Source: Banduia mediterranea
Lineage (GTDB): Bacteria; Pseudomonadota; Gammaproteobacteria; Nevskiales; Nevskiaceae
Direction: 5' to 3'
DNA length: 64,000 bases
Assembly: GCF_031846245.1 (NCBI RefSeq)
Contig: NZ_JAVRIC010000006.1
Coordinates: 62,001-126,000, forward strand
The position numbers and the translations under genes are program-made. The notes beneath the pieces were generated by a model. It was not told the DNA's origin. It did not search any database and saw only the letters and a list, made by a program, of their open reading frames with translations. The first letter of the stretch is position 1. The number at the start of each line of letters is the position of its first letter. Shown here piece by piece: positions 42,094 through 59,507 of this stretch.

Positions 42094-45000
42094 GTGAAGC
42101 AAAGCCGCCGCCGGCTCTGGACCTGGACGATCAGCACGGTCGCCGGCCTGATCGTGCTCGCCGCCGTCGTCACCGGTCTGTTCCGCGGTGCGGTGCTGCT
42201 GCTGCCGGGCTATCGCGACGACCTGGAACGCAAGATCGGCGAGATCACCGGTTACGACATTCGCATCGGCGAAATGAATCTTTATTGGCGCGGGCTGTCG
42301 CCGGTGCTGGATCTCGACCGCCTGGTGGTGATGAGCGCTGCCGATCCGGAACAGCCGGCGGTCCGCATTGGCGAGATGGTGATCGGAACCAGCCTGTGGC
42401 GTCTGCTGCATGGCGATGTGACACCGCGCTATCTGTCGCTTACGGGCCTGCAACTGGCTGTGGAGCGTCAGCCGGACGGCCATTGGATCGTGTCCGGCCT
42501 CGAAAGTCGGGGCAGTGGCGGCGTCGAAGTGCAGAAGCTGCTCGACGAGCTTGCGCGATTCAAGCGCGTGCGCCTGGCGGGATGCGTGGTCGAGGTCAGC
42601 AACGAGCAGTGGTTCGGCCAGAGCCCGCGTGGCTTCGAACTGCGCGAAGCCGATCTGCAGATCGGCGAAACCGCCAGCGATCTGCTGCTGCGGATGCAGA
42701 TGCCGGCCGACATCGGCCGCGATCTGCAAGTCCAGCTTCATCTCGATGGTGCCTTGAATCGTCCGGCGCAATGGCAGTTCGACGCCGAGGCCAGTGCCGG
42801 CGACCTCCAGCTGGGTGATGTGCTGCGACCTTGGATCAAGGACGGCGCCGGCCTGGCGGTCGGCGCGCCGGTGCTCAGCTTCAGCGGGTCCACCAGCCAG
42901 CGGGGCGGATTCGATCAGTTGAGCGCCGCGCTCGATCTCGAGTCCCTGGAAACGCGCAGCGCCGATGGCAGCGGCGCCGAACTGTCGGATATCCACCTTG
43001 AGGGCCAGTGGCAACGAGGACCCGAAACCTGGGGGCTGGACCTGCAGTCCCTGCGTCTGCGCGGGCCCAATGGCCCCTGGCCGGTCACGCGCGGGCGGCT
43101 CAGCCGCAGCGTCAATGGGGCGCAAACCGAGTGGCGTGCCGATCTCGGCTTCGTACGGCTCGACGACCTTGCGCCCCTGTTCGCCGTGCTGCACAAGGAC
43201 AGGGGCGCCGATCGCCTGGCCGGTTTGCGTGGCGATCTGCGTTCCTTGGTCATGAACCTGTCGCTGGGCGATGGCGCGCCGCGCTATCGCTATCGCGCCG
43301 AGGTGGCCGCCGCCGGTGTCGATGACGGCGAGCGCCGTTTCGTCGGGCTCACCGGCGGTCTCAGCGGCGATGACAGCGGCGGGCGCCTGCAGCTGCAGCC
43401 TGCGCCGGCCGAGTTCGCCTGGCCCAGCCTGTTCGCCGATCCGATCACGATCGATTCCCTGAGCGGCCGCCTCGACTGGACGCAAACGGCCGATGGTGGC
43501 TGGCGCATCGGTCTGGACGGGCTGAGCTGGCAGTTGATGACTGCGGCCGGTGCCGGCGAAGGCGAGCTGCTGTTGCCGGGCGCCAGCGCTGGAAAGCGCG
43601 CCACGCCCCGGCTGAAACTGCGTACCTCGCTGCAGACCGATGACGTGGTTCCGATGAAGTCTCTGGTGCCGATCGCATGGCATGCCAGCCTGCGCGACTG
43701 GCTGGATCGCGCGATTCGCGGCGGTCGCGTGGTCGACGGCGAACTGCGTCTGGACCTGCCGTTTTCGGACATCGGCCAGAAGCGGGTTCCCGAGGGCTTC
43801 CAACTGGACCTGCAGGTGGCCGGCGGCCAGCTCGCGTTTCTGCCGGACTGGCCGACGGCAGACGGTCTGGAGGCCACGCTCGCGTTCCGCGGCAATGGCC
43901 TGAATGTGAAAAGCGATCGCGGCAGCCTGCGCGGCCTCAAGCTCGAAGAGCTGAGCGCGCGTATCGAGGATTTCTCCGAACGCCGGCTGGTGATCGACGG
44001 ACGCATCAGCGGTGATGCGGCACGCTTCTACCAGGTGCTGGACAGCACGCCGCTGCGCGAGCGGCTGTCGGCGCTGCTCGACAAGACCGATGCTGCCGGT
44101 CCGACCGTGGTCGGCCTGGGCCTGCAGGTACCACTGGATGCCGGTGCCGAACCCGAAGTGGCCGGCACCATCGACATCAACGAGGGCCGGATGCGCGTCA
44201 CCGGTCTGCCCGAGGACATCACCGGGATTCAGGGGCAGGTTCGGTTCGACAACGCGGGCGTCAGCGCGCAGGACCTGCACGGCCGTTGGATGGACATCGC
44301 GCTGAGTGCCGCGCTGGCGCCGGCCGAGCCGGGCGTCACCGAACTGTCGGTCGAATTCGATCTGGGCGCCGAGTCGGTGTTGCTGGAACGCGTGCCGCCG
44401 TGGATACGTTCGAGGATTCGTGGTCGCTCTCACTGGAGCGGCGGCACCCGGCTGGGCGTCGAGCAAACCCAGCCTTTCGTCCTGCGCTCCGGCCTGGAAG
44501 GCACCACGATCGAGTTGCCGGAACCCTTGTATCGCCCCGCCGGCGAGTCCGGTCCACTGACGATCTCGCTGAGCCCGGACGACAGCGAAGGCGTGCTTTT
44601 CGAGGCCCAGCTTGCCGAGTTGCTGAGCGTTCGCGGCCGCGTTGCCGCCGTGCGCGAAGATCCGGGTTTCGATCTGCTGTCGGCCACGCTGGCGCAGTCC
44701 AAGAACCGTCTGGACTATTTGCAGATCTGGTTTGGGGGTGCGCCGCCACAGACGCCGGAGCCCGGAATCTTCGTCGGTGGGCGCGTCGATTCCGTCGATG
44801 TTCGCGGCTGGGGTCAGATCTACGAACCCGGCGATGGCGACATGCCGATTCCCGATCCGCGACTGGACGTGGCGGTCGCTGCGATCCGTTTCGGCAGTTT
44901 CCGGGTGCGGGATGCCCAGGTACGGGCCCTGCACGACGACGAGGGCTGGGCGTTGCAGTTTGATAGCGAACAGGCCAGCGGCAGCCTGAACTATCCGAGC

Positions 45001-45957
45001 GATCAGCAAGGCGTGATGACGGCCCGCTTCGATCACCTGGTGGTGACCAGCACGCCCGATGAGGGCACCGAAAGTGATGACGAGGCGCGCGTCGACGAAT
45101 CACCGACGCCGGACTTCACGCGCGACCACGAGCCGCTCGATCCCACCACGATCCCCACCTTCGATGTCGATGTTGCCGCACTCACGTTCAACCGGATCAG
45201 CCTGGGTCATGTCGTCTTGCAGACCTCGCGCCTGCCGGAAGGCCAGAAGGTCGACCGGTTCAGCAGCGATGCGCCGGTTCTGCAGGCGCAGGTGCAGGGC
45301 CAGTGGACCCGTGCCGGCGACACTTCACAGGCCGGCCTGGGTTTTGACATCAAGAGTTCGCAGATCGCCGACGCGCTGACCGCTTTCGGCTACGCGGCCA
45401 ATCTCGAAGCCCGCCAGGCGAACATCAAGGGGCAGCTCTCATGGGATTCGGCGGGCGAGGGTCTGAGCCTGGCGCAGGCCCGCGGCACGGTCTCGCTGCA
45501 GGCCGAGCGCGGTCGCATGCGCACTGTTGAACCCGGCGCCGGGCGCGTGCTCGGCCTGTTCAGTTTCTACGCGCTGCCGCGCCGCCTCACGCTCAACTTC
45601 GGAGATGTGGTCGGCAAGGGTCTGGCCTTCGATCGCATCGACGGCAATTTCGATCTCGGCGACGGCGTGGCGCATACTTCGGACCTTGATATCGAAGCGC
45701 CCTCGGTGCGGATCGAGATGCGTGGCGATATCGGCCTGGCCGCTCGCGACTATGATCAGCGGGTAACCTTGTTTCCCGATGTGTCAGGCGGGGTTACGCT
45801 GGGAGCGGCCTTGCTGGGTGGCCCTGCGGCGGCCGTGATCGCACTGCTGGCGCAGGAACTGCTCGACAAGCCGCTGGATCAGGCCAGCCAGCTCAGCTAT
45901 CGCCTCACCGGGAGCTGGGACAATCCGCAGGTGAATCGCATCGACGGCGGAGAATGA
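42094..45957 (+). CDS. yhdP: YhdP/AsmA-family transport protein
   Basis: The 1287-residue protein has one N-terminal transmembrane helix (TISTVAGLIVLAAVVTGLF) and a long periplasmic part of repetitive beta structure (DUF3971 and AsmA_2 regions). The C-terminal segment includes ARGTVSLQAERGRMRTVEPG and a closing GVTLGAALLGGPAAAVIALLAQELLDKP stretch. In E. coli YhdP with TamB and YdbH moves phospholipids to the outer membrane. Start is GTG 42094. Its position after rng and before nitrilase and tldD is the conserved order. Confidence 0.9.
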   Translation: MKQSRRRLWTWTISTVAGLIVLAAVVTGLFRGAVLLLPGYRDDLERKIGEITGYDIRIGEMNLYWRGLSPVLDLDRLVVMSAADPEQPAVRIGEMVIGTSLWRLLHGDVTPRYLSLTGLQLAVERQPDGHWIVSGLESRGSGGVEVQKLLDELARFKRVRLAGCVVEVSNEQWFGQSPRGFELREADLQIGETASDLLLRMQMPADIGRDLQVQLHLDGALNRPAQWQFDAEASAGDLQLGDVLRPWIKDGAGLAVGAPVLSFSGSTSQRGGFDQLSAALDLESLETRSADGSGAELSDIHLEGQWQRGPETWGLDLQSLRLRGPNGPWPVTRGRLSRSVNGAQTEWRADLGFVRLDDLAPLFAVLHKDRGADRLAGLRGDLRSLVMNLSLGDGAPRYRYRAEVAAAGVDDGERRFVGLTGGLSGDDSGGRLQLQPAPAEFAWPSLFADPITIDSLSGRLDWTQTADGGWRIGLDGLSWQLMTAAGAGEGELLLPGASAGKRATPRLKLRTSLQTDDVVPMKSLVPIAWHASLRDWLDRAIRGGRVVDGELRLDLPFSDIGQKRVPEGFQLDLQVAGGQLAFLPDWPTADGLEATLAFRGNGLNVKSDRGSLRGLKLEELSARIEDFSERRLVIDGRISGDAARFYQVLDSTPLRERLSALLDKTDAAGPTVVGLGLQVPLDAGAEPEVAGTIDINEGRMRVTGLPEDITGIQGQVRFDNAGVSAQDLHGRWMDIALSAALAPAEPGVTELSVEFDLGAESVLLERVPPWIRSRIRGRSHWSGGTRLGVEQTQPFVLRSGLEGTTIELPEPLYRPAGESGPLTISLSPDDSEGVLFEAQLAELLSVRGRVAAVREDPGFDLLSATLAQSKNRLDYLQIWFGGAPPQTPEPGIFVGGRVDSVDVRGWGQIYEPGDGDMPIPDPRLDVAVAAIRFGSFRVRDAQVRALHDDEGWALQFDSEQASGSLNYPSDQQGVMTARFDHLVVTSTPDEGTESDDEARVDESPTPDFTRDHEPLDPTTIPTFDVDVAALTFNRISLGHVVLQTSRLPEGQKVDRFSSDAPVLQAQVQGQWTRAGDTSQAGLGFDIKSSQIADALTAFGYAANLEARQANIKGQLSWDSAGEGLSLAQARGTVSLQAERGRMRTVEPGAGRVLGLFSFYALPRRLTLNFGDVVGKGLAFDRIDGNFDLGDGVAHTSDLDIEAPSVRIEMRGDIGLAARDYDQRVTLFPDVSGGVTLGAALLGGPAAAVIALLAQELLDKPLDQASQLSYRLTGSWDNPQVNRIDGGE

Positions 45958-46015
45958 GGGCGCTGGCCCGAAACGCCACTTGCAAATCAGACAACTGGAC
46001 CCGACTGAAGAACCC

Positions 46016-46864
46016 ATGAGCACAGCCAATCCCGTAGTCGCCGCGCTGCAGATGCGCACCGGTGCCGATGTCGCCGAAAACCTCGCGCAGGCGCGAGGTC
46101 TGCTCGAAGACGCGGCACGCGCCAAGGCGGTACTCGCCGTGCTGCCCGAGAACTTCGCGTTCATGGGCGCCAAGGAAACCGACAAACTCTCCGTTGCGGA
46201 ACCGCAGGGCGAAGGCGCCATCCAGAGCTTTCTGGCGACGCAGGCGCGGCGCCTCGGCCTGTGGATCGTCGGAGGAACGTTGCCGATGGCCGTCCCCGAA
46301 CGCAAGGACAAGGTCTGGGCGGCCAGCCTCATGTACAGCCCGGAAGGCAAGCTGGCGGCGCACTATGACAAGGTGCACCTGTTCGACGTGGAGGTCGCCC
46401 GCGAAGACGGCGTGGATCGCTACCGCGAATCCGCCACCATCGAGCAGGGCGACATCCGCTTCGTTACGCAGGACACGCCGGCCGGCCGCGTCGGCATGAC
46501 CGTGTGCTACGACCTGCGCTATCCCGAGTTGTATCGCCGCCTGTCGCGTGATCTGGCGGAAATCATCGTGGTCCCCTCGGCTTTCACCCAGCGCACCGGC
46601 GAAGCCCATTGGGAGCCCTTGCTGCGCGCCCGCGCCATTGAGAACCAGTGCTTCATCATCGCGCCGAACCAGCACGGCCAGCATCCGGGCGGGCGCAAGA
46701 CCTACGGTCACAGCTGCATTATCGACCCCTGGGGCACCGTCATCGCCGAGCGTGCCGAAGGGGTGGGTATCGTCACCGCCACACTGCGCCGCGAACAACT
46801 CTTCAATCTGCGTCGCACCTTCCCGGTGCTGACCCATCGCCGAATCGTCTATGACCGCACCTGA
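46016..46864 (+). CDS. Nitrilase/omega-amidase-family carbon-nitrogen hydrolase
   Basis: The 282-residue Nit-type enzyme has the catalytic triad of the superfamily: Glu in [10 protein letters not shown], Lys in YDKVHLFDV, and Cys in [13 protein letters not shown]. The sequence is of the Nit1/Nit2-like branch that hydrolyses deaminated glutathione or omega-amides. ATG 46016 was chosen because the family N-terminus ([10 protein letters not shown]) starts just after it. Its 3' end overlaps tldD by 14 bases in another frame. Confidence 0.9.
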
Positions 46865-48302
46865 GAATTCCCTGGACCGGGCCCGCTCCGCGCTGCTGGC
46901 GCCGGGCGGGCTGGATCTCGCCGACCTCGAACGCACACTGGACGCACTGATGCGCCCCGGTATCGACGCGGCCGACCTCTATTTCCAGGACATGCGCGCC
47001 GAATCCTGGGTGCTGGAAGACGGCATCATCCGCACCGGCAATCACCATGTGGAACGTGGCGTGGGTCTGCGAGCCCAGTCCGGCGAAAAGACCGGGTTCG
47101 CGTATTCGGACGAGATCGTCGCCCCGGCCCTGATCGATGCCGCCAGCAATGCGCGCGCCATCGTGCGCCAGGGCCAGCAGGGCGGCGTGCAGGCCTGGAG
47201 CGCGCGCAGCGTCGCGCCGCTGTACGTCGGCGCGAGCCCGCTGGATAGTCTGCCGGTGGAAGACAAGCTGTCGCTGTTGCGCCGCTGCGATGCCGCCGCG
47301 CGCAGCGCCGACCCGCGCGTCTCCCAGGTCATCGCCTCCTTGTCCGGCACCTATGAAATTATCCTGATCGCCGCCAGCGATGGCACTCTGGCTGCGGACG
47401 TGCGTCCGCTGTGCCGGCTCAACGTCAGTGTCGTCGTGGAATCCGGCGGCAAGCGCGAGCAAGGCTCGTCCGGCGGCGGCGGTCGCCACGGCTACGAAGT
47501 GTTTCTGGAATCCGGCAGCCCCGAGGACTATGCGCGCGAATCGGTGCGCGTCGCCCTGGTCAAGCTCGAAGCGGTGGCGGCCCCTGCGGGCACGCAGACC
47601 GTGGTGCTCGGCCCCGGCTGGCCCGGCGTGCTGCTGCACGAGGCGGTCGGGCATGGTCTGGAAGGGGATTTCAACCGCAAGGGCAGCTCGGCGTACAGCG
47701 GCAAGATCGGCCAGAAGGTCGCGTCCGAACTTTGCACCGTGGTCGACGAAGGCTCGATTCCCGGCCGCCGCGGCTCGCTCAGCGTGGATGACGAGGGCAC
47801 GCCGACGCAGCGCAACGTCCTGATCGAAAAAGGCATCCTGCGCGGCTACATCCAGGACAAGACCAACGCCCGCCTGATGGGTATGGCGGCCACCGGTAAC
47901 GGCCGCCGCGAGTCCTACGCGCACCTGCCGATGCCGCGCATGACCAATACCTATCTCACCGCCGGGGAATCCGATCCGGCCGACATCATCGCCAGTGTCG
48001 AAAAGGGGATCTACGCCGTCGGCTTCAACGGCGGTCAGGTCGACATCACCTCCGGCAATTTCGTGTTCGCCGCCAGCGAGGCCTATTTGATCGAAAACGG
48101 CAAGGTCACACGCCCGGTCAAGGGCGTCACCCTGATCGGCAACGGCCCGGACGCCCTGGGGCGCGTCAGCATGGTCGGCAACGATCTCGCACTCGATCCC
48201 GGTATCGGCGTCTGCGGCAAGGACGGCCAGAGCGTACCGGTCGGCGTGGGCCAGCCCACCCTCAAGATCGACGCGATGACGGTGGGCGGCACGCAGACCT
48301 GA
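46851..48302 (+). CDS. tldD: TldD metalloprotease subunit
   Basis: The 483-residue TldD/PmbA-family protein has the zinc-binding [11 protein letters not shown] motif near residue 264 and a conserved [12 protein letters not shown] segment. TldD with PmbA (TldE) degrades unfolded peptides and processes microcin-type peptides. PmbA is not in this window. It ends the maf-rng-yhdP-nit-tldD set. Confidence 0.93.
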
Positions 48303-49248: not shown

Positions 49249-52200
49249 TCACTCCGGACCGGCCGCACCATCACCCAGGCGCCCATACCGCTGAATCAAC
49301 TCCCGCAAACGCGCCCGCAAATCTCCCGGCAGCTGCGACCATTCGAATCGCCAGCTCCAATTGTTCTCCACTGTTCCCGGCGTATTCATACGCGCCTCGG
49401 CGCCCAAACCCAACAAGTCCTGCATCGGCACGATGGCGAGGGGAGCGGTGCTGGCCAGGGCGGTGTGGATCATCGGCCAGGGCATGGGTTCTTCGGGGTG
49501 CAGCAGGTAGAAGCGTGCGTAGTCCTGCGTGGCTGGGTCGAGTTCTTCCCACCAGGCGCAGGTGGTGTTGTTGTCGTGGGTGCCGGTGTACATCAGCAGC
49601 GGCCCGTGCGTGTTCTGCGGAAGATGAAGATTGTTCGGGTCGCCGTCGAAGGCGAATTGCAGGACGCGCATGCCGGGCAGATGGTGTCGGTCCCTTAGTT
49701 CGTAAACGTCCGGTGTGATTTCGCCGAGGTCTTCGGCGACCAGGTTCAGCGGGTACAGGCTGCGGTGCAGTTGCGTGAGCAGGGCGTCGCCCGGCGCCGG
49801 CACCCAGCGGCCACCGCGTGCGGTCTGCGAGCCGGCTTTCAGTTCCCAGTAGGCGGACAGGCCGCGGAAGTGGTCGATGCGCACGATGTCGAACAGGGAC
49901 CATTGCGTACGCATGCGGCGGACCCACCAGGCGTAGCCCTCGCGTTCGTGGTTCGACCAGCGGTACAGGGGATTTCCCCAGATCTGTCCGTCTTCCGCGA
50001 AGTAGTCGGGCGGGACGCCGGCCACCAGTTCGGCCTGGCCGTGTGCGTCCACATGGAACAGTTCGCGGTGCGCCCAGACGTCTGCGCTGTGATGCGCCAC
50101 GAACAAGGGCAGGTCGCCGAACAGGCGTACGTCGTGGCGTTGTGCGTAGTCGCGGATCTCGTGCCATTGCGTGAAGAACACGAATTGTTCGAAGGCGATG
50201 CGTTGCAGCTGCTCGTCCAGGCGGCCTTTCGCCTCTGACAGTGCCGAGGCTTCGCGGTCGCGCAGGGTTTGCGGCCATTCGATCCAGCTGCGGCCGCCGT
50301 GTTGCGCATTGAGGGCGGCGAACAGGCAGTAGTCGTCCAGCCAGTCGGCCTGGGCGTCACGGAAGGCGTCGAAACGCACGCGCCATTGCGCATCCGCTTT
50401 TTCCTGAAAACCATGCCAGGCGGCGACCAGGGCTTCGCGGCGCATGGTTTTGGCGTCGTCTGCCGTGGCCTCGTAGCCCGGCAGCCAGCCGTGATCGACC
50501 AGCCAGTCCAGGCTGATCAGCAAGGGGTTGCCGGCGTTGGCGGACAGGGACAGGTAGGGCGATCCGTCTTCATGCGTGGCGCCCAGCGGCAGCAACTGCC
50601 ACACGTCGAAACCGGCTTCGGCGCAGAACTCGATGAAACGGTAGGCGCTGTGCGAGAAATCGCCGTTGCCGGGCGCATCCGGCAGCGAGCTGATGTGCAG
50701 CAGCACGCCGGCGCCGCGCGCGGCCATCAGCACCTTGGCCGGCGCGATCTGGTCCGGGGCAATCGGCGGCGGCTGGTCGTCGGCGCTGCCGGCTTTCATG
50801 GTGCCGCCGGCTGCGGCGGCGCCACCGCCCCGGCTCAGGGCTTGCTCCAGATTGGCTGGCGCAGGCAGGCCGAGAATGTCGTAGAGGCGCTCCAGTTGCT
50901 GGCGGTAGAGCCGGTCGAAGGAGGCGACGGCGCTGGCCGGGTTGTCGTCGCCGAACCACCAGAACCAGTCCGAGCCTTCGCAGACCGCGAGCTGGCGTTC
51001 GGCGCGGGCGAGGCTCGCTTCATCCAGTGCGTGCGACTTTTGATCGAAAGCCTGCTTGGCTTCGATCAGGCGTTCCCAGCCCCGATTCTTGTCGGCCGAG
51101 CCGATCCAGGTGGAGAAAGTGCCGTAGACCCAACTGCCGGCGACCAGGCGCGGCAGGCTGGCGCGTGGCGCGGCCTGCGCGACGATGTCCGAGAACGTCT
51201 GCATGCGCAGTTGCGGGTGATCTTCGAGCCGGGCGTACAGGGCGTCGAGAAAGTGGTAGCCGTTGTCCGGAAAGTATTCCCAGGCGTTCTCGCCATCCAG
51301 ATAGATCGTGACCACACGTTCGGCGTCTCCGGCCGCACGCGCTTGCGCGGCGATCGATTCCAGATGGGCGACGAGGTCCGCTGCGGCATCGTCGGCATGC
51401 CAGTTCGAATATTTGAAACCGATCGCGTCGGACAGGCCGTCGTCGCGGAAGAAGCAGGCCAGGGTACGCCCGCCCACGGTGTAGGGACGGTGCGGGTCGT
51501 CGGCGCCGCTGTGGCCGAGTACGCCCTGGCCGGTGACGGTCCAGCTGAAGTCGAATTCCCCGAGCAGGTCCAGCGTGGCGTCGGAGACGCCGCCTTCGGA
51601 ACACCACACGCCTTGCGGAATGAAGCCGAAGCGCTGCTTGAAGGCATCCAGCGCCTGCGCGAAATGCCAGCGGCTACGTTGCTGGCCGCCCGGATAGTGG
51701 GGCGGTGAGGGCAGCGGAGCCTGCGGCATCGCTTGCTGCGCGCTGCCGATGTCCAGCAGCAGCGGCACGATCGGGTGACCGTACGGTGTCAATGAGAGTT
51801 CGACACGGCCGGATTCGGCCAGCGCGCGATAGCGCGGCACCAGTCCGCCCATGCACTCGCCGTACAGGCGCAGCAGTTCGCGCCGCTGCGCCACGGTGTA
51901 AATGCGGTTCTGGGCGATCAGGGACTGAATGAAACGGTCCTGCCGTTTCTGTGCTTCGCCGGTCCAGGCCAGGTGATACCAGGTGGCGAGGTCGGTGAAG
52001 AACACCTCGGGCGTGGCGCGAAGTTCGTCGTCGTGATCGAGCAGGCGCAGGGCTTCGGCGGCGAGCCGGCGATAGACCGGATAACGGCCGATCAGCCGTT
52101 CGGGATGGGCGCGCAGGCAATGTTCGATGGCGCGCCGTCGGACATCGGCATCCGCCGGAATGGATGCCGCCAGCAGCAGGTCCAGGGTTTCGTCACCGAT

Positions 52201-52461
52201 AGGCTGTCCGTCGTTCAAGCAGCGTTCGATGCGTTGTGCGTAATCCTCGATCTGTTCGAGCAGCAGCGGCACGAAGTTGACCACCGCGCGTGCCTGGGGA
52301 TGCTGCTCAAGGTGCGCGGCCATGTCGGCGTAGTCCTTGATCGCGTGCAGGTAGGTCCAGGGCAGGCGGAATTCGCCGCTGGCAGGGTCGCGGTATTCAG
52401 GCTGGTGCATATGCCAGCCCAGTACGATGCGCAGGCGCGGGTCGGCGGTCGGGATGATCAT
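49249..52461 (-). CDS. GH57 alpha-glucan hydrolase fused to GH77 4-alpha-glucanotransferase
   Basis: The 1070-residue protein joins two carbohydrate enzymes. Residues 1 to about 550 are a GH57 domain: HQPEY at the start, catalytic nucleophile Glu near 287 in VWCSEGGVS, and Asp near 389 in LDGENAWEYF. A Gly/Ala linker (about 535-575) leads to a GH77 (MalQ) domain from about 578: GVLLHISSLP, Asp near 857 in VRIDHFRGLSAYWE, Glu near 908 in VAEDLGEITPDV, and GTHDNNTT near 961. The pair would cut and transfer alpha-1,4-glucan chains. ATG 52461 was chosen as the GH57 domain starts there. Confidence 0.9.
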   Translation of the reverse strand: MIIPTADPRLRIVLGWHMHQPEYRDPASGEFRLPWTYLHAIKDYADMAAHLEQHPQARAVVNFVPLLLEQIEDYAQRIERCLNDGQPIGDETLDLLLAASIPADADVRRRAIEHCLRAHPERLIGRYPVYRRLAAEALRLLDHDDELRATPEVFFTDLATWYHLAWTGEAQKRQDRFIQSLIAQNRIYTVAQRRELLRLYGECMGGLVPRYRALAESGRVELSLTPYGHPIVPLLLDIGSAQQAMPQAPLPSPPHYPGGQQRSRWHFAQALDAFKQRFGFIPQGVWCSEGGVSDATLDLLGEFDFSWTVTGQGVLGHSGADDPHRPYTVGGRTLACFFRDDGLSDAIGFKYSNWHADDAAADLVAHLESIAAQARAAGDAERVVTIYLDGENAWEYFPDNGYHFLDALYARLEDHPQLRMQTFSDIVAQAAPRASLPRLVAGSWVYGTFSTWIGSADKNRGWERLIEAKQAFDQKSHALDEASLARAERQLAVCEGSDWFWWFGDDNPASAVASFDRLYRQQLERLYDILGLPAPANLEQALSRGGGAAAAGGTMKAGSADDQPPPIAPDQIAPAKVLMAARGAGVLLHISSLPDAPGNGDFSHSAYRFIEFCAEAGFDVWQLLPLGATHEDGSPYLSLSANAGNPLLISLDWLVDHGWLPGYEATADDAKTMRREALVAAWHGFQEKADAQWRVRFDAFRDAQADWLDDYCLFAALNAQHGGRSWIEWPQTLRDREASALSEAKGRLDEQLQRIAFEQFVFFTQWHEIRDYAQRHDVRLFGDLPLFVAHHSADVWAHRELFHVDAHGQAELVAGVPPDYFAEDGQIWGNPLYRWSNHEREGYAWWVRRMRTQWSLFDIVRIDHFRGLSAYWELKAGSQTARGGRWVPAPGDALLTQLHRSLYPLNLVAEDLGEITPDVYELRDRHHLPGMRVLQFAFDGDPNNLHLPQNTHGPLLMYTGTHDNNTTCAWWEELDPATQDYARFYLLHPEEPMPWPMIHTALASTAPLAIVPMQDLLGLGAEARMNTPGTVENNWSWRFEWSQLPGDLRARLRELIQRYGRLGDGAAGPE

Positions 52462-52602
52462 GGGCTGATTGCGGGTTAGGGACAGGCCTGGTGATGCTGG
52501 GGCGCGGCGGAATATGAAGCAAGCTTGGGGCCGCCGCGCGGGTGGCGGCCGCGCCGGGCGCACGGCAGACTAGCGCCGCTTCCTACAGGGACGGGTTGGG
52601 AC

Positions 52603-55266: not shown

Positions 55267-56183
55267 TTAGGTGCGCGGGCAGTGCCTGCTAATCGCCCCC
55301 ACCAGTTGCGCCAGCCGGGCCACACCGTCCACCGCCATGCTCTTGCCGGTGTTGAGCAAGGCCACCGAAATGTCCCGCGCCGGATCGGCCCAGCAGATGA
55401 TGTTGATGAAGCCGAGATGGCCATAGGCTTCCGCGCAGTTCAGGCCATAGAGGCCCAGCAGGCGCTCGCCGGAAACCATACCTGCAGAGAAGCGCACCGG
55501 GAGCAGCAGCGAGCTGTCTAGTCGGAGATAGCCGATCGGTGCCACAGCGCGCGCGATCGTCTCCGGTTCCAGCACGCGGGTGCCGTTGAGTTCGCCGCCG
55601 TTGAGCAGCATCTGGAAGAACAGACAGGCATCGTCGGCGCTGGCGTAGATATTGCCGGCCGGGATCGTGGCCGATAGGAAACCTGGCTCGTTGGAAATCG
55701 TCGCAACATCTTCGAAGCGCACTCCGAGTATGCGTTTGGCGATATATCCGATCGGCGGCACCAGGCGCGGCCCGGTGAAGGCGTTTTCGGCCGCCAGAGC
55801 GTGCTGCTGCAAGGGCAGGCCGTAGCTCATGTGATTGAGGCCCAGCGGACGCGTGAAACGTTGCAGCAGGACCTCGCGCAGCGGCCGTGCTTCGCACAAC
55901 GCCTGGATGGCCCGGTCCCAGTCGAACAGCAGTTCCGGATCGGCATGCTTAGACGGAATGCGCGGAATCCCGGCGTATCGGCTTCGAGCGGTGATTTGCG
56001 CACGCTGCCCTGGCGGCCCGGTGCATTGCCGTGTGCATTGCCGTGGGCATGGCCGATGGCGCGCCGCAGCACGACTCGGCCGCGGCGCCGGATCACCAGG
56101 GAAATGCCGGGGTGCAGTCCGGTTTGGTACAGGGTTTCGGTGGCGGACCAGATGACATCCACGTTGTCGCGGCGCATGCCCAC
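55267..56183 (-). pseudogene. Serine hydrolase (beta-lactamase/esterase-fold) pseudogene
   Basis: The N-terminus (from ATG 56183: VIWSATETLYQTGLHPGISLVIRRRGRVVLRRAIGHA) is in one frame and the C-terminus (ELLFDWDRAIQALCEARP to GHLGFINIICWADPARDISVALLNTG) is in another. They meet near 55970. Family members have a nucleophile SxxK (FSASK-like) about 30 residues after GHA and another conserved block after LCEARP; both appear deleted. It is therefore unlikely to be active. It resembles the EstB-like serine hydrolase family. Confidence 0.75.
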
Positions 56184-56538
56184 ATCCGCCGGATCGCATT
56201 CCAGCCTCGGATCGTAATGTGTGATCTCGGATTACGGTGACAGCATACAAAACGTCCGAATTGATTCGGGCGAGATTGGAAATCAGCAAACTCTCGCCGT
56301 AGCCCGCTTCGCTTGTCTCGGCCGGCGCATCGGGACGCGCTGCGCGATCTTCGTGGCGATCACGATCTGCGCTGCGGTCACCTTGTGGACCTGCTTCCTG
56401 CAGATCGGAGTCACCGCTGTCGTCAGCGCCAGCCCGCGCCTGTCGATTCTGAGCCTGCTGATCCTGTTCGCGGCCGGCGCCATATTGCCGGCGCGCGTTC
56501 CCGATCCCGATTCGGTGAGCGCTCCAGCGGTTTGAGGC
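56184..56538. other. 355-bp gap with a doubtful small membrane protein frame
   Basis: A GTG-started frame at 56221-56535 would encode 104 residues with two hydrophobic stretches (CAIFVAITICAAVTLW and LSILSLLILFAAGAILPA). It has no ribosome site and no family match I know of, so I do not call it a gene. Confidence 0.3.
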
Positions 56539-58512
56539 TCAAGGCTGGAACCGACTGATGGCGAGACGCAGCGCCTTTTCGGTGGCGGCATCCTCGCCGT
56601 CGAGATAACGCAAAGACTGGTAGAGCGCCGCCATGCGGCCAACTGACGCGGCCAGTTCCGGGCGCTCCTTTGCGACACGGCGCGCGAAATCGCCGGCGCC
56701 TTCGTCGGGTCTCTGAACCAGTCCGATGCGCGCCAGACGTCGCTGCAGGCCGCGCCACAGACGCTGCGCGCGATCCTTCGCCGCAGGCGGGTGCAGGCGT
56801 CGCAAGGTGAACAGGCTGATGACGGCGAGGATGGTGACGACCATTCCCGTCAGCACCAGGATCATGCTGCGCAGGCTGTCCACGCCGAAGCGCGACAGAA
56901 GGGTACGCTGTAGCTCCGGACCATAACCCAGCACCAGGCCATTCCAGCTGGCATTGACCCAATCCCAGCGCGCTTCGATCCAGTAACGCAGGCGGGTGGT
57001 GCTGAACAGCGAACCCGGCATGCGCTCTCCGACGGCATCGAGTGCGCCTTCGACGCCAGTTTCGATGCGCGATGGGGCGACCGCCGCCGTCGGGTCGACC
57101 CTCACCCAGCCTTGCCCCTCCAACCAGACTTCGCTCCAGGCATGGGCGTCCGACTGACGGACTACCATGTAGCCGCCAATTTCGTTGATTTCGCCGCCGA
57201 GATAGCCGGTGACCACGCGAGCCGGAATGCCGGTCGCGCGCATCAGTGCGGTGAAGCTGCTCGCGTAGTGCTCGCAGAACCCACGCTTTGTCGAGAACAG
57301 GAAGTCGTCGACGCTGTCGCGCCCCAGTCGGGGCGGATTCAATGTGTAGAAGTATTCCTGCTCGCGAAACCGGTTCAGCACCTGATCGACGATCTGGCGA
57401 TCGGACAGGCCGCGTGTGCGAAGCCGCAACGCGTAGTCCCGGGTCTTCGGGTTGGCGTCGCGCGGCAGGCGCAGGCTGAGGCGCCGCACCAGGTCCGGAA
57501 GCTCGGGCTGCAAGCGATAGTTCGGGTATGAGCGCAGGCGGTAGGCGCGACGCCCGGAGACCGGTTTGGTGGCGATCAATTGGTAGTCCGGCCCCAGCCG
57601 GCTGGTGGCCGGCAGCGCCGACGGTACCGGCATCTCCAGGGCCATGAGCCAGGGGCGCGCCTGTGGTTCGAGCGTGACCAGATAATCCACCGGATCGCCG
57701 GACCACTCCAGCGGCGGATGCTCGTGTTCGTTGCCGCGGTAACCCGGTTCCCAGCGATAGCCGTCGAAGCTCCAGAAGCTCGGTCCGCGCCAGTAGCGCT
57801 GTGCCGGCGGCGGTGGCGCACCGTCGAAACTGACGCGGAATGCGACTTCGTGTGATTCGATCAGCGAGGAAATGTCGCCGGGCGACAGTGAGTCGGACAG
57901 ACCGGTGCGGCCGGCCCCGCTGTCCGAAGGCAGGCCCCAGAGTGGTCCCGGAATGCGCGGAAACAGTACAAACAGCACCAGCATCAGCGGCAGCGCCAAG
58001 GCGATGACGCGGGCGCCCAGACCGAGACTGGTCCGCCAGGGCAGGGCGGCGCCCGGGTGATTGGCATCACCCAGCACCGCCGTGATCGCCACCGCGCAGC
58101 CCAGCATGTAGGGCAGCGTCCACAATTCCTGTGAATACAGGAAATGAGTGAGCAGCACGAAATACAGGAGGAACACCACGACCGTGACGTCGCGTCGCGA
58201 GCGCATCTCGGTCAGCTTCAGGCTCAGCATCAGCACGAACAATGCGGTGCCCGCGGTCTGGCTGTTGACCCGACCGTAGCTCGCCCAGATCCCGGCGAAC
58301 GCGGCGAAGCTCAGCACGAACCGCACCCAGCGTGGGGGCAGTGCCCACTGGCGGAACGTCGCCGTGGCACGCCACACGAGCAGCAGCAGCGACACCAGGC
58401 CGGCCCACAGCGGCAGGTGCGGGGCATGCGGTGCGATCACCAGAAACATCACCGCCAGCAGACGCAGGAGCGCGTTGCGACTCAGGTAGTCGTCGGCCGC
58501 AACCGCGGCCAT
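56539..58512 (-). CDS. tgpA: TgpA-type membrane transglutaminase-like protein
   Basis: The 657-residue protein has an N-terminal DUF3488 membrane block of about five helices, a transglutaminase-like core with catalytic Cys in KRGFCEHYASSF, His in SDAHAWSEVW and Asp in RVDPTAAV, a further transmembrane helix (ILVLTGMVVTILAVISLF) and a DUF4129-like tail. TgpA is an essential periplasmic transglutaminase in Pseudomonas. Its start overlaps the DUF58 stop by one base, completing a moxR-DUF58-tgpA operon. Confidence 0.92.
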   Translation of the reverse strand: MAAVAADDYLSRNALLRLLAVMFLVIAPHAPHLPLWAGLVSLLLLVWRATATFRQWALPPRWVRFVLSFAAFAGIWASYGRVNSQTAGTALFVLMLSLKLTEMRSRRDVTVVVFLLYFVLLTHFLYSQELWTLPYMLGCAVAITAVLGDANHPGAALPWRTSLGLGARVIALALPLMLVLFVLFPRIPGPLWGLPSDSGAGRTGLSDSLSPGDISSLIESHEVAFRVSFDGAPPPPAQRYWRGPSFWSFDGYRWEPGYRGNEHEHPPLEWSGDPVDYLVTLEPQARPWLMALEMPVPSALPATSRLGPDYQLIATKPVSGRRAYRLRSYPNYRLQPELPDLVRRLSLRLPRDANPKTRDYALRLRTRGLSDRQIVDQVLNRFREQEYFYTLNPPRLGRDSVDDFLFSTKRGFCEHYASSFTALMRATGIPARVVTGYLGGEINEIGGYMVVRQSDAHAWSEVWLEGQGWVRVDPTAAVAPSRIETGVEGALDAVGERMPGSLFSTTRLRYWIEARWDWVNASWNGLVLGYGPELQRTLLSRFGVDSLRSMILVLTGMVVTILAVISLFTLRRLHPPAAKDRAQRLWRGLQRRLARIGLVQRPDEGAGDFARRVAKERPELAASVGRMAALYQSLRYLDGEDAATEKALRLAISRFQP

Positions 58513-59507
58513 CACGCCGCCCCGAACAGGGCCAGTGCCTGCAGGCAACGCTGGCGGTGTGCGGGCCCGCGATCCGGAGCCAGCCGCAGGCCCGGAAGGT
58601 GCAGACCATAGGTCGCCGAACCGTTATCGGCGTCGAGCACCCAGCGCGTCAGCTGCGAAAGTCGTGCCTCGGTATCCAGGGCGCCGAGCGCGTCCCAGTC
58701 CAGCCACAGTTGCTCGTCGCTGCTGTCCGCGAACTGTTTGACCATCGGGTTGGCGAGCTTGGGCAGGCTCTTCCAATGAACCATGCGCGCGGTGTCGCCG
58801 CGCTGATAGGGCCGCAGGCCGGCGAACTCCTCCTGGCCGCTGCGCGTGCTGGTGCCGTGTCCGCCGCGGCCGTGTCCGGCTGGCATCGGAAGGCCCGGCG
58901 GGGCGGGCTGAGGATAAACCAGGCTGCGCATTTCCAGTTCCACCCAGGTCCAGGCATGGAAAAGACCCAGAGGAAACTCGGTGGACACCGCAAAGATCCC
59001 GGCCGGGATCCACCCGCGTGCAGGCGCGGACTTTCGCAATTCGGCACGCGTTTCCGTCTGTTGCGGTACATCGAAGGTGTCGCCGCTCGGCTCCGCGTGC
59101 GGCCAGCTCAGGGTCACGGCGCAGCGCGCGCTGGGCGCGCGATTGCTCAGCAATACGGGGAAGTGCGCTGTCTCGCCGGCGAACACAGGCTCCAATTCAC
59201 CGACGCGCAGGCGCAGATTCACCAGATTGGCGTGCGTCAGGTGCATGGCCACCAGACCGACCCCGGACAGCAGAAAGGTCAGCAGAAAGCCGAGACTGTT
59301 GGAGTAGTTCATCGAACCGAGCAGCATCGCCAGCAACAGCACGGCGAACACATAGCCGTAGCGCGAGGGCACGATGTAGACGCGGCGCCGCGAGATCACC
59401 ACCGGCCCGGCCTCGCGGCGCACGCGTGCGAGCACCCAGGCATCGATGCGCGTCTGAACGGAACGCAAGGGATGCAACAGGATCTTGCCGATCAACCAGA
59501 TTCGCAT
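58512..59507 (-). CDS. DUF58 (MoxR-partner) protein
   Basis: The 331-residue protein has two early membrane helices (YVFAVLLLAMLLGS and SLGFLLTFLLSGVGLVAM) and the DUF58 signature EFAGLRPYQRGDTARMVHWK. Such proteins are linked to MoxR ATPases and vWA systems in protein assembly. The ATG at 59507 is 9 bases after the last heptamer repeat, whose GAGG lies 11 bases from the start codon and could serve as the ribosome site. Confidence 0.9.
   Translation of the reverse strand: MRIWLIGKILLHPLRSVQTRIDAWVLARVRREAGPVVISRRRVYIVPSRYGYVFAVLLLAMLLGSMNYSNSLGFLLTFLLSGVGLVAMHLTHANLVNLRLRVGELEPVFAGETAHFPVLLSNRAPSARCAVTLSWPHAEPSGDTFDVPQQTETRAELRKSAPARGWIPAGIFAVSTEFPLGLFHAWTWVELEMRSLVYPQPAPPGLPMPAGHGRGGHGTSTRSGQEEFAGLRPYQRGDTARMVHWKSLPKLANPMVKQFADSSDEQLWLDWDALGALDTEARLSQLTRWVLDADNGSATYGLHLPGLRLAPDRGPAHRQRCLQALALFGAA

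Follow-up and report, generated by a model that had tools for sequence, protein, structure and literature searches.

A GH57-GH77 fusion gene in Banduia mediterranea joins the members of a conserved gene pair and may encode a bifunctional glycogen-breakdown enzyme

The window analysed here is a stretch of 64,000 nucleotides of the Banduia mediterranea genome, and one of its genes encodes two glycoside hydrolase domains in one chain. The ORF at 49249-52563 on the minus strand is a single uninterrupted frame, open up to a GTG at 52563. An ATG at 52461 is its probable start, preferred because the separate GH57 genes of relatives start near the corresponding site, and this start gives a fusion gene of 1070 aa at 49249..52461 (minus strand; residues below follow this numbering unless stated otherwise). 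Read from the GTG as 1104 aa, the protein carries the Pfam domains GH57 (PF03065) at residues 47-468, with 155.4 bits against a cut-off of 21.2, and GH77 (PF02446) at residues 622-1078, with 516.8 bits against a cut-off of 25. Pfam, alignment, a structural model and fold comparison together delimit a GH57 half predicted to be of amylopullulanase type, at residues 1-544 (50830..52461, minus strand). It is followed by a linker at residues 545-576 (50734..50829, minus strand), which includes the site at which, in relatives, GH57 terminates and malQ begins, and by a GH77 half, a predicted amylomaltase according to Pfam, NCBIfam and alignments, at residues 577-1070 (49252..50733, minus strand).

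The second genome of the genus carries the same fused frame, and the two are 98% identical. The genes differ at 76 of 3213 bases, and a dN of 0.009 against a dS of 0.073 (dN/dS of about 0.125) indicates purifying selection across both halves. With an assembly in draft state, in 97 contigs, a single base could decide the matter, so that a missing stop codon might reflect a sequencing or assembly error. This explanation is hardly credible, given that the same open junction is found in the congener despite the differences between the two genes. The fusion of both enzymes in one frame is confirmed as real.

The gene lies apart from other glycogen genes. Its neighbours are a row of yhdP, a carbon-nitrogen hydrolase gene and tldD (42094-48302) and, at the opposite end, a penicillin amidase gene; the penicillin amidase side is kept in the congener, while the congener's contig stops on the yhdP-tldD side. 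Further along on the minus strand (55267-58548) are genes for a beta-lactamase-family (PF00144) protein and for a TgpA-type transglutaminase. A promoter scan found none, terminator-like sites numbered 4 against 3.2 in shuffles, and six peptide patterns matched no relatives on viral contigs. A tblastn search of the 64-kb window with E. coli GlgA, GlgB, GlgC, GlgP, GlgX, MalP and MalQ retrieved nothing but the fusion gene (E 1e-8). The sequence-only reading had stated that no other glycogen genes are near it, which holds within the window but not for the contig: glgA, glgC, an alpha-glucan phosphorylase gene (TIGR02094) and glgB are clustered at C6:154.5-162.3 kb (L080 9512-17340, corresponding to G000:C6:154512-162340), on the same contig and about 40 kb away from the fusion at C6:111.2-114.5 kb.

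The GH77 half resembles Thermus-type GH77 amylomaltase (PDB 1cwy) over its full length and at all three catalytic positions. D863 (codon 49873..49875), E910 (49732..49734) and D963 (49573..49575), all on the minus strand, align with D293, E340 and D395 of the Thermus enzyme, which we take to be its catalytic Asp-Glu-Asp triad, and each is invariant in 58 rows of the alignment. NCBIfam groups this C-terminal half with 4-alpha-glucanotransferases, with scores above the cut-offs of TIGR00217 (302.3 against 205.65 bits) and NF011080 (610.8 against 477 bits). It is a predicted amylomaltase, probably acting by disproportionation. The Thermus amylomaltase is a separate protein, whereas the GH77 domain of the fusion sits C-terminal to GH57.

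In the GH57 half, E289 (codon 51595..51597, minus strand) and D389 (51295..51297, minus strand) occupy the nucleophile and proton-donor positions. In the alignment they match E256 and D352 of the enzyme from Aquifex aeolicus, and both are invariant in 57 rows; PMC6037648 describes GH57 catalysis as relying on a Glu nucleophile and an Asp proton donor. All five catalytic residues of the chain thus align with those of solved enzymes, which bears out the first description of one chain with a complete GH57 and a complete GH77 domain, both catalytically intact. Modelled with AlphaFold, the GH57 half has a mean pLDDT of 92, and its nearest fold is the GH57 amylopullulanase of A. aeolicus (Z 51.6, rmsd 2.0 over 474 residues, 34% identity), followed among enzymes by the Staphylothermus amylopullulanase (Z 37.3); scores are lower for the 4-alpha-glucanotransferase 1k1x (Z 31.8) and for branching enzymes (Z of about 32). 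Foldseek also places Aquifex entries at the top. The Aquifex enzyme (PDB 9iht, 8zyi, 9jlq and others) shares the fold, both catalytic positions and a WW stretch with the GH57 half, to which it is 33-34% identical, and differs in being a stand-alone protein of about 477 residues lacking a GH77 half. According to PMC6037648, the amylopullulanase fingerprint consists of two Trp ending conserved region 5, a rule termed there not unambiguous. The stretch CEGSDWFWW at residues 494-502 ends in WW as in this fingerprint, its assignment to conserved region 5 being our own mapping.

These similarities suggest that the GH57 half acts on alpha-1,6 and some alpha-1,4 bonds, and its branch specificity is the weakest step of the mechanism that we propose below. 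It might instead be mainly an alpha-1,4 amylase or glucanotransferase, in which case the fusion would recycle linear maltodextrins rather than remove branches. According to PMC11206854, the GH57 of a Pontibacter glycogen locus acted like a 4-alpha-glucanotransferase. While one Aquifex GH57 structure entry holds, by its partial record, a 6-alpha-D-maltotriosyl ligand, linear ligands are also present in Aquifex entries, and the genome of the window has a GlgX available for debranching. We nevertheless regard this alternative as rather unlikely, since amylopullulanase is the nearest enzyme in both fold and sequence, ahead of 1k1x and the branching enzymes, the WW fingerprint fits amylopullulanase, and a second 4-alpha-glucanotransferase attached to MalQ would presumably be redundant.

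The distribution of the fusion was assessed in several sets of genomes. Both halves were present in 18 genomes of a relatives sample of 100 (the window's own and 99 relatives). Among 58 distinct loci of other genomes, 57 held both halves, always on the same strand and with a median gap of 51 bases between the GH57 and GH77 matches (maximum 672); only one of these 57, the congener, was fused. We also inspected named loci, the best 80 of 589 GTDB genome matches, some of which may duplicate genomes of the other samples. A single one was fused, that of Candidatus Sedimenticola endophacoides (L119; Gammaproteobacteria, Chromatiales), a proportion that is not a frequency because the loci are the best 80 of 589 matches. 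Both halves were found in 17 of the 18 loci of a phylum sample (L179-L196), and none of the 17 was fused. The architecture, whose distribution the sequence-only reading had left to a domain search, is rare in the loci checked. Apparent open frames of more than 1000 aa among the matches listed were considered as further fusions and rejected, given that none of 12 class-sample loci (L086-L097) and none of the 18 phylum-sample loci was fused at the DNA level; they seem to be frames with stops read through. In two genomes scored as single matches, G019 and G086, a stop separates the halves. No natural GH57-GH77 fusion was found described in the literature searched (titles and abstract openings, with CAZy and most subscription journals outside the search).

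In a tree of 123 rows (117 of them different), the fused state has to be reached by two changes, and supported branches force each of them (FastTree support). The fusion of Candidatus Sedimenticola endophacoides is an independent origin, separate from that of the genus; it is found within L119 2343-9222, where the start of the fused gene overlaps the last part of glgC and glgB points the opposite way. The direct relatives of the fusion are the unfused GH57-malQ pairs of glycogen clusters, with GH57 proteins 44-58% and GH77 proteins 41-58% identical to its halves. They lie on the same strand in every locus checked and, unlike the fusion, consist of two genes with an intervening stop. The fusion is a young and rare joining of known enzymes.

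The junction itself is consistent with such an origin. In the nearest genus (G008, G019, G028 and G033), GH57 ends soon after the same motif and a stop precedes malQ; in G008, the GH57 stop codon overlaps an ATG in the malQ frame. The reading that we favour, with moderate confidence, is that adjacent GH57 and malQ genes were joined when the stop codon separating them was lost in frame, and that the product has a bifunctional role in glycogen breakdown. The full-length model consists of two confident halves and a linker with a pLDDT below 50, and does not fix the placement of one domain against the other (pTM 0.57); substrate channelling between the halves would be a guess. The long frame might also exist while the working products are two proteins, made by cleavage of the chain or from an internal GH77 start, which would make the fusion neutral. 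An ATG is present at or near the junction in both genomes of the genus and could still yield free GH77, the low pLDDT of the linker would suit cleavage, and the genus is known from only two genomes, which are close kin. This two-product scenario is improbable in our view, as no strong ribosome-binding site is visible by eye before the ATG and the fusion arose at least twice. No stop has been regained in the linker either, a weak point given that the linkers of the two fused genes differ at one base only.

Of the 17 relatives that carry both halves, 11 have a glgC match whose end is at most 160 bases from GH57; in one of these (L044), glgC comes in two pieces. Of the remaining six, five are the congener and the four nearest-genus genomes. 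The sixth is L049, on a contig that stops 1.5 kb upstream of GH57 and shows no glgC match there. In both genera concerned, that of the window and the nearest one, the pair sits apart from the glg cluster. Among the named loci (best 80 of 589 matches, some of them cut by contig ends), glgC was found in 77 at E 1e-25 (75 of them above 150 bits), glgB above 300 bits in 63 and glgA above 200 bits in 29. A cluster of 4-alpha-glucanotransferase, glgC, glgB and glgA genes was already known in Methylococcus (PMC8527097). One phylum-sample locus (L195 1851-4974, G742) has glgC followed by GH57 and lacks a GH77 match in 9 kb, which indicates that GH57 can occur at glgC without an adjacent malQ. Given that the fusion joins a conserved gene pair and that its genome also has glgA, glgC, a glucan phosphorylase, glgB and GlgX, the initial suggestion that it could process alpha-glucans without separate enzymes was too strong.

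The relationship between the pair and GlgX was examined in a class sample of 369 genomes, the class being taken as Gammaproteobacteria from the names of GTDB matches and pair status being read from match counts and E-values. Among the matches listed, 206 genomes had a match: about 157 of the 369 had the pair, 44 had single or weak matches and five were ambiguous and set aside; a further 163 had no match. GlgA scored above the cut-off in 199 of the 369 genomes and GlgX in 77. Among the matches listed, GlgA was above the cut-off in 150 of the 157 pair genomes, and GlgX was present in 34 and absent from 116 of these 150, as against 30 with and 15 without it among the 45 GlgA genomes that lack the pair; four ambiguous genomes with GlgA were left aside from this comparison. 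The association of the pair with GlgX absence has a Fisher p of 1e-7 when kinship is ignored. It stays (p 7e-8) after reassignment of three genomes with borderline GlgX, namely G209, with 638.1 against 640.9 bits, and G147 and G143, which have pieces of GlgX at contig ends. The relatives sample gave a similar result, with GlgX in 7 genomes and absent from 11 where the pair is present, and in 28 and absent from 3 where it is not (p 2e-4). A GlgA tree of 49 relatives provided only two supported independent contrasts, too few for significance, and the association cannot, therefore, be placed beyond clade history; kinship may be its source. Six genomes of the class sample (G085, G201, G285, G297, G400 and G412) have GlgA above the cut-off and neither a GH57/GH77 match nor GlgX above its own cut-off, and may be incomplete.

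Both the window's genome and the congener have GlgX above the cut-off. In the former, the gene for GlgX (TreX) lies directly before those for TreZ and TreY, with dnaK downstream (L082 7718-14555, G000:C24). This adjacency makes a role in trehalose synthesis possible; this GlgX may serve that pathway and could also debranch glycogen.

Eukaryotic glycogen-debranching enzyme is bifunctional, combining 4-alpha-glucanotransferase and alpha-1,6-cleaving activities in one polypeptide. The enzyme roles that we predict for the two halves from homology and modelling would place the same two activities in one chain, built from different catalytic domains. The GH57 half would hydrolyse alpha-1,6 bonds, and some alpha-1,4 bonds, in glycogen trimmed by phosphorylase. 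The GH77 half would disproportionate the short malto-oligosaccharides thus freed, yielding glucose and longer chains for phosphorylase, and the flexible linker would hold both activities on the same substrate. A bifunctional glycogen-breakdown enzyme of this kind, arisen by stop loss from a neighbouring pair, is what we consider reasonably probable; functionally, it would correspond to GlgX and MalQ combined, and to the eukaryotic enzyme. Bacterial proteins described as bifunctional GlgX/4-alpha-glucanotransferases (NF011083 and NF011082) likewise contain, by family description, a debranching enzyme and a 4-alpha-glucanotransferase per chain, the debranching part presumably being GlgX (GH13). 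Membership of the fusion in these GlgX/MalQ families was rejected, as it scores far below their cut-offs (440.8 against 1322 bits for NF011083 and 67.2 against 2511 for NF011082, with the best stretch in the GH77 half), although it is proposed to work alike.

More tentatively, and with less confidence than for the fusion itself, we suggest that many glycogen-storing gammaproteobacteria and some relatives may debranch with a pair of GH57 amylopullulanase and MalQ instead of GlgX, and that this pair, fused at least twice, offers a bacterial parallel, from other domains, to the eukaryotic bifunctional enzyme. If true, this would give a function to a common gene pair that family models name just GH57 and 4-alpha-glucanotransferase, and would suggest how many glycogen-making bacteria of the class manage without GlgX. 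For starch modification, the fusion would also supply an enzyme that already combines two activities. The pair, separate in the nearest genus, fused here and fused again in Sedimenticola, would provide a natural comparison for the effect of fusion on glycogen turnover.
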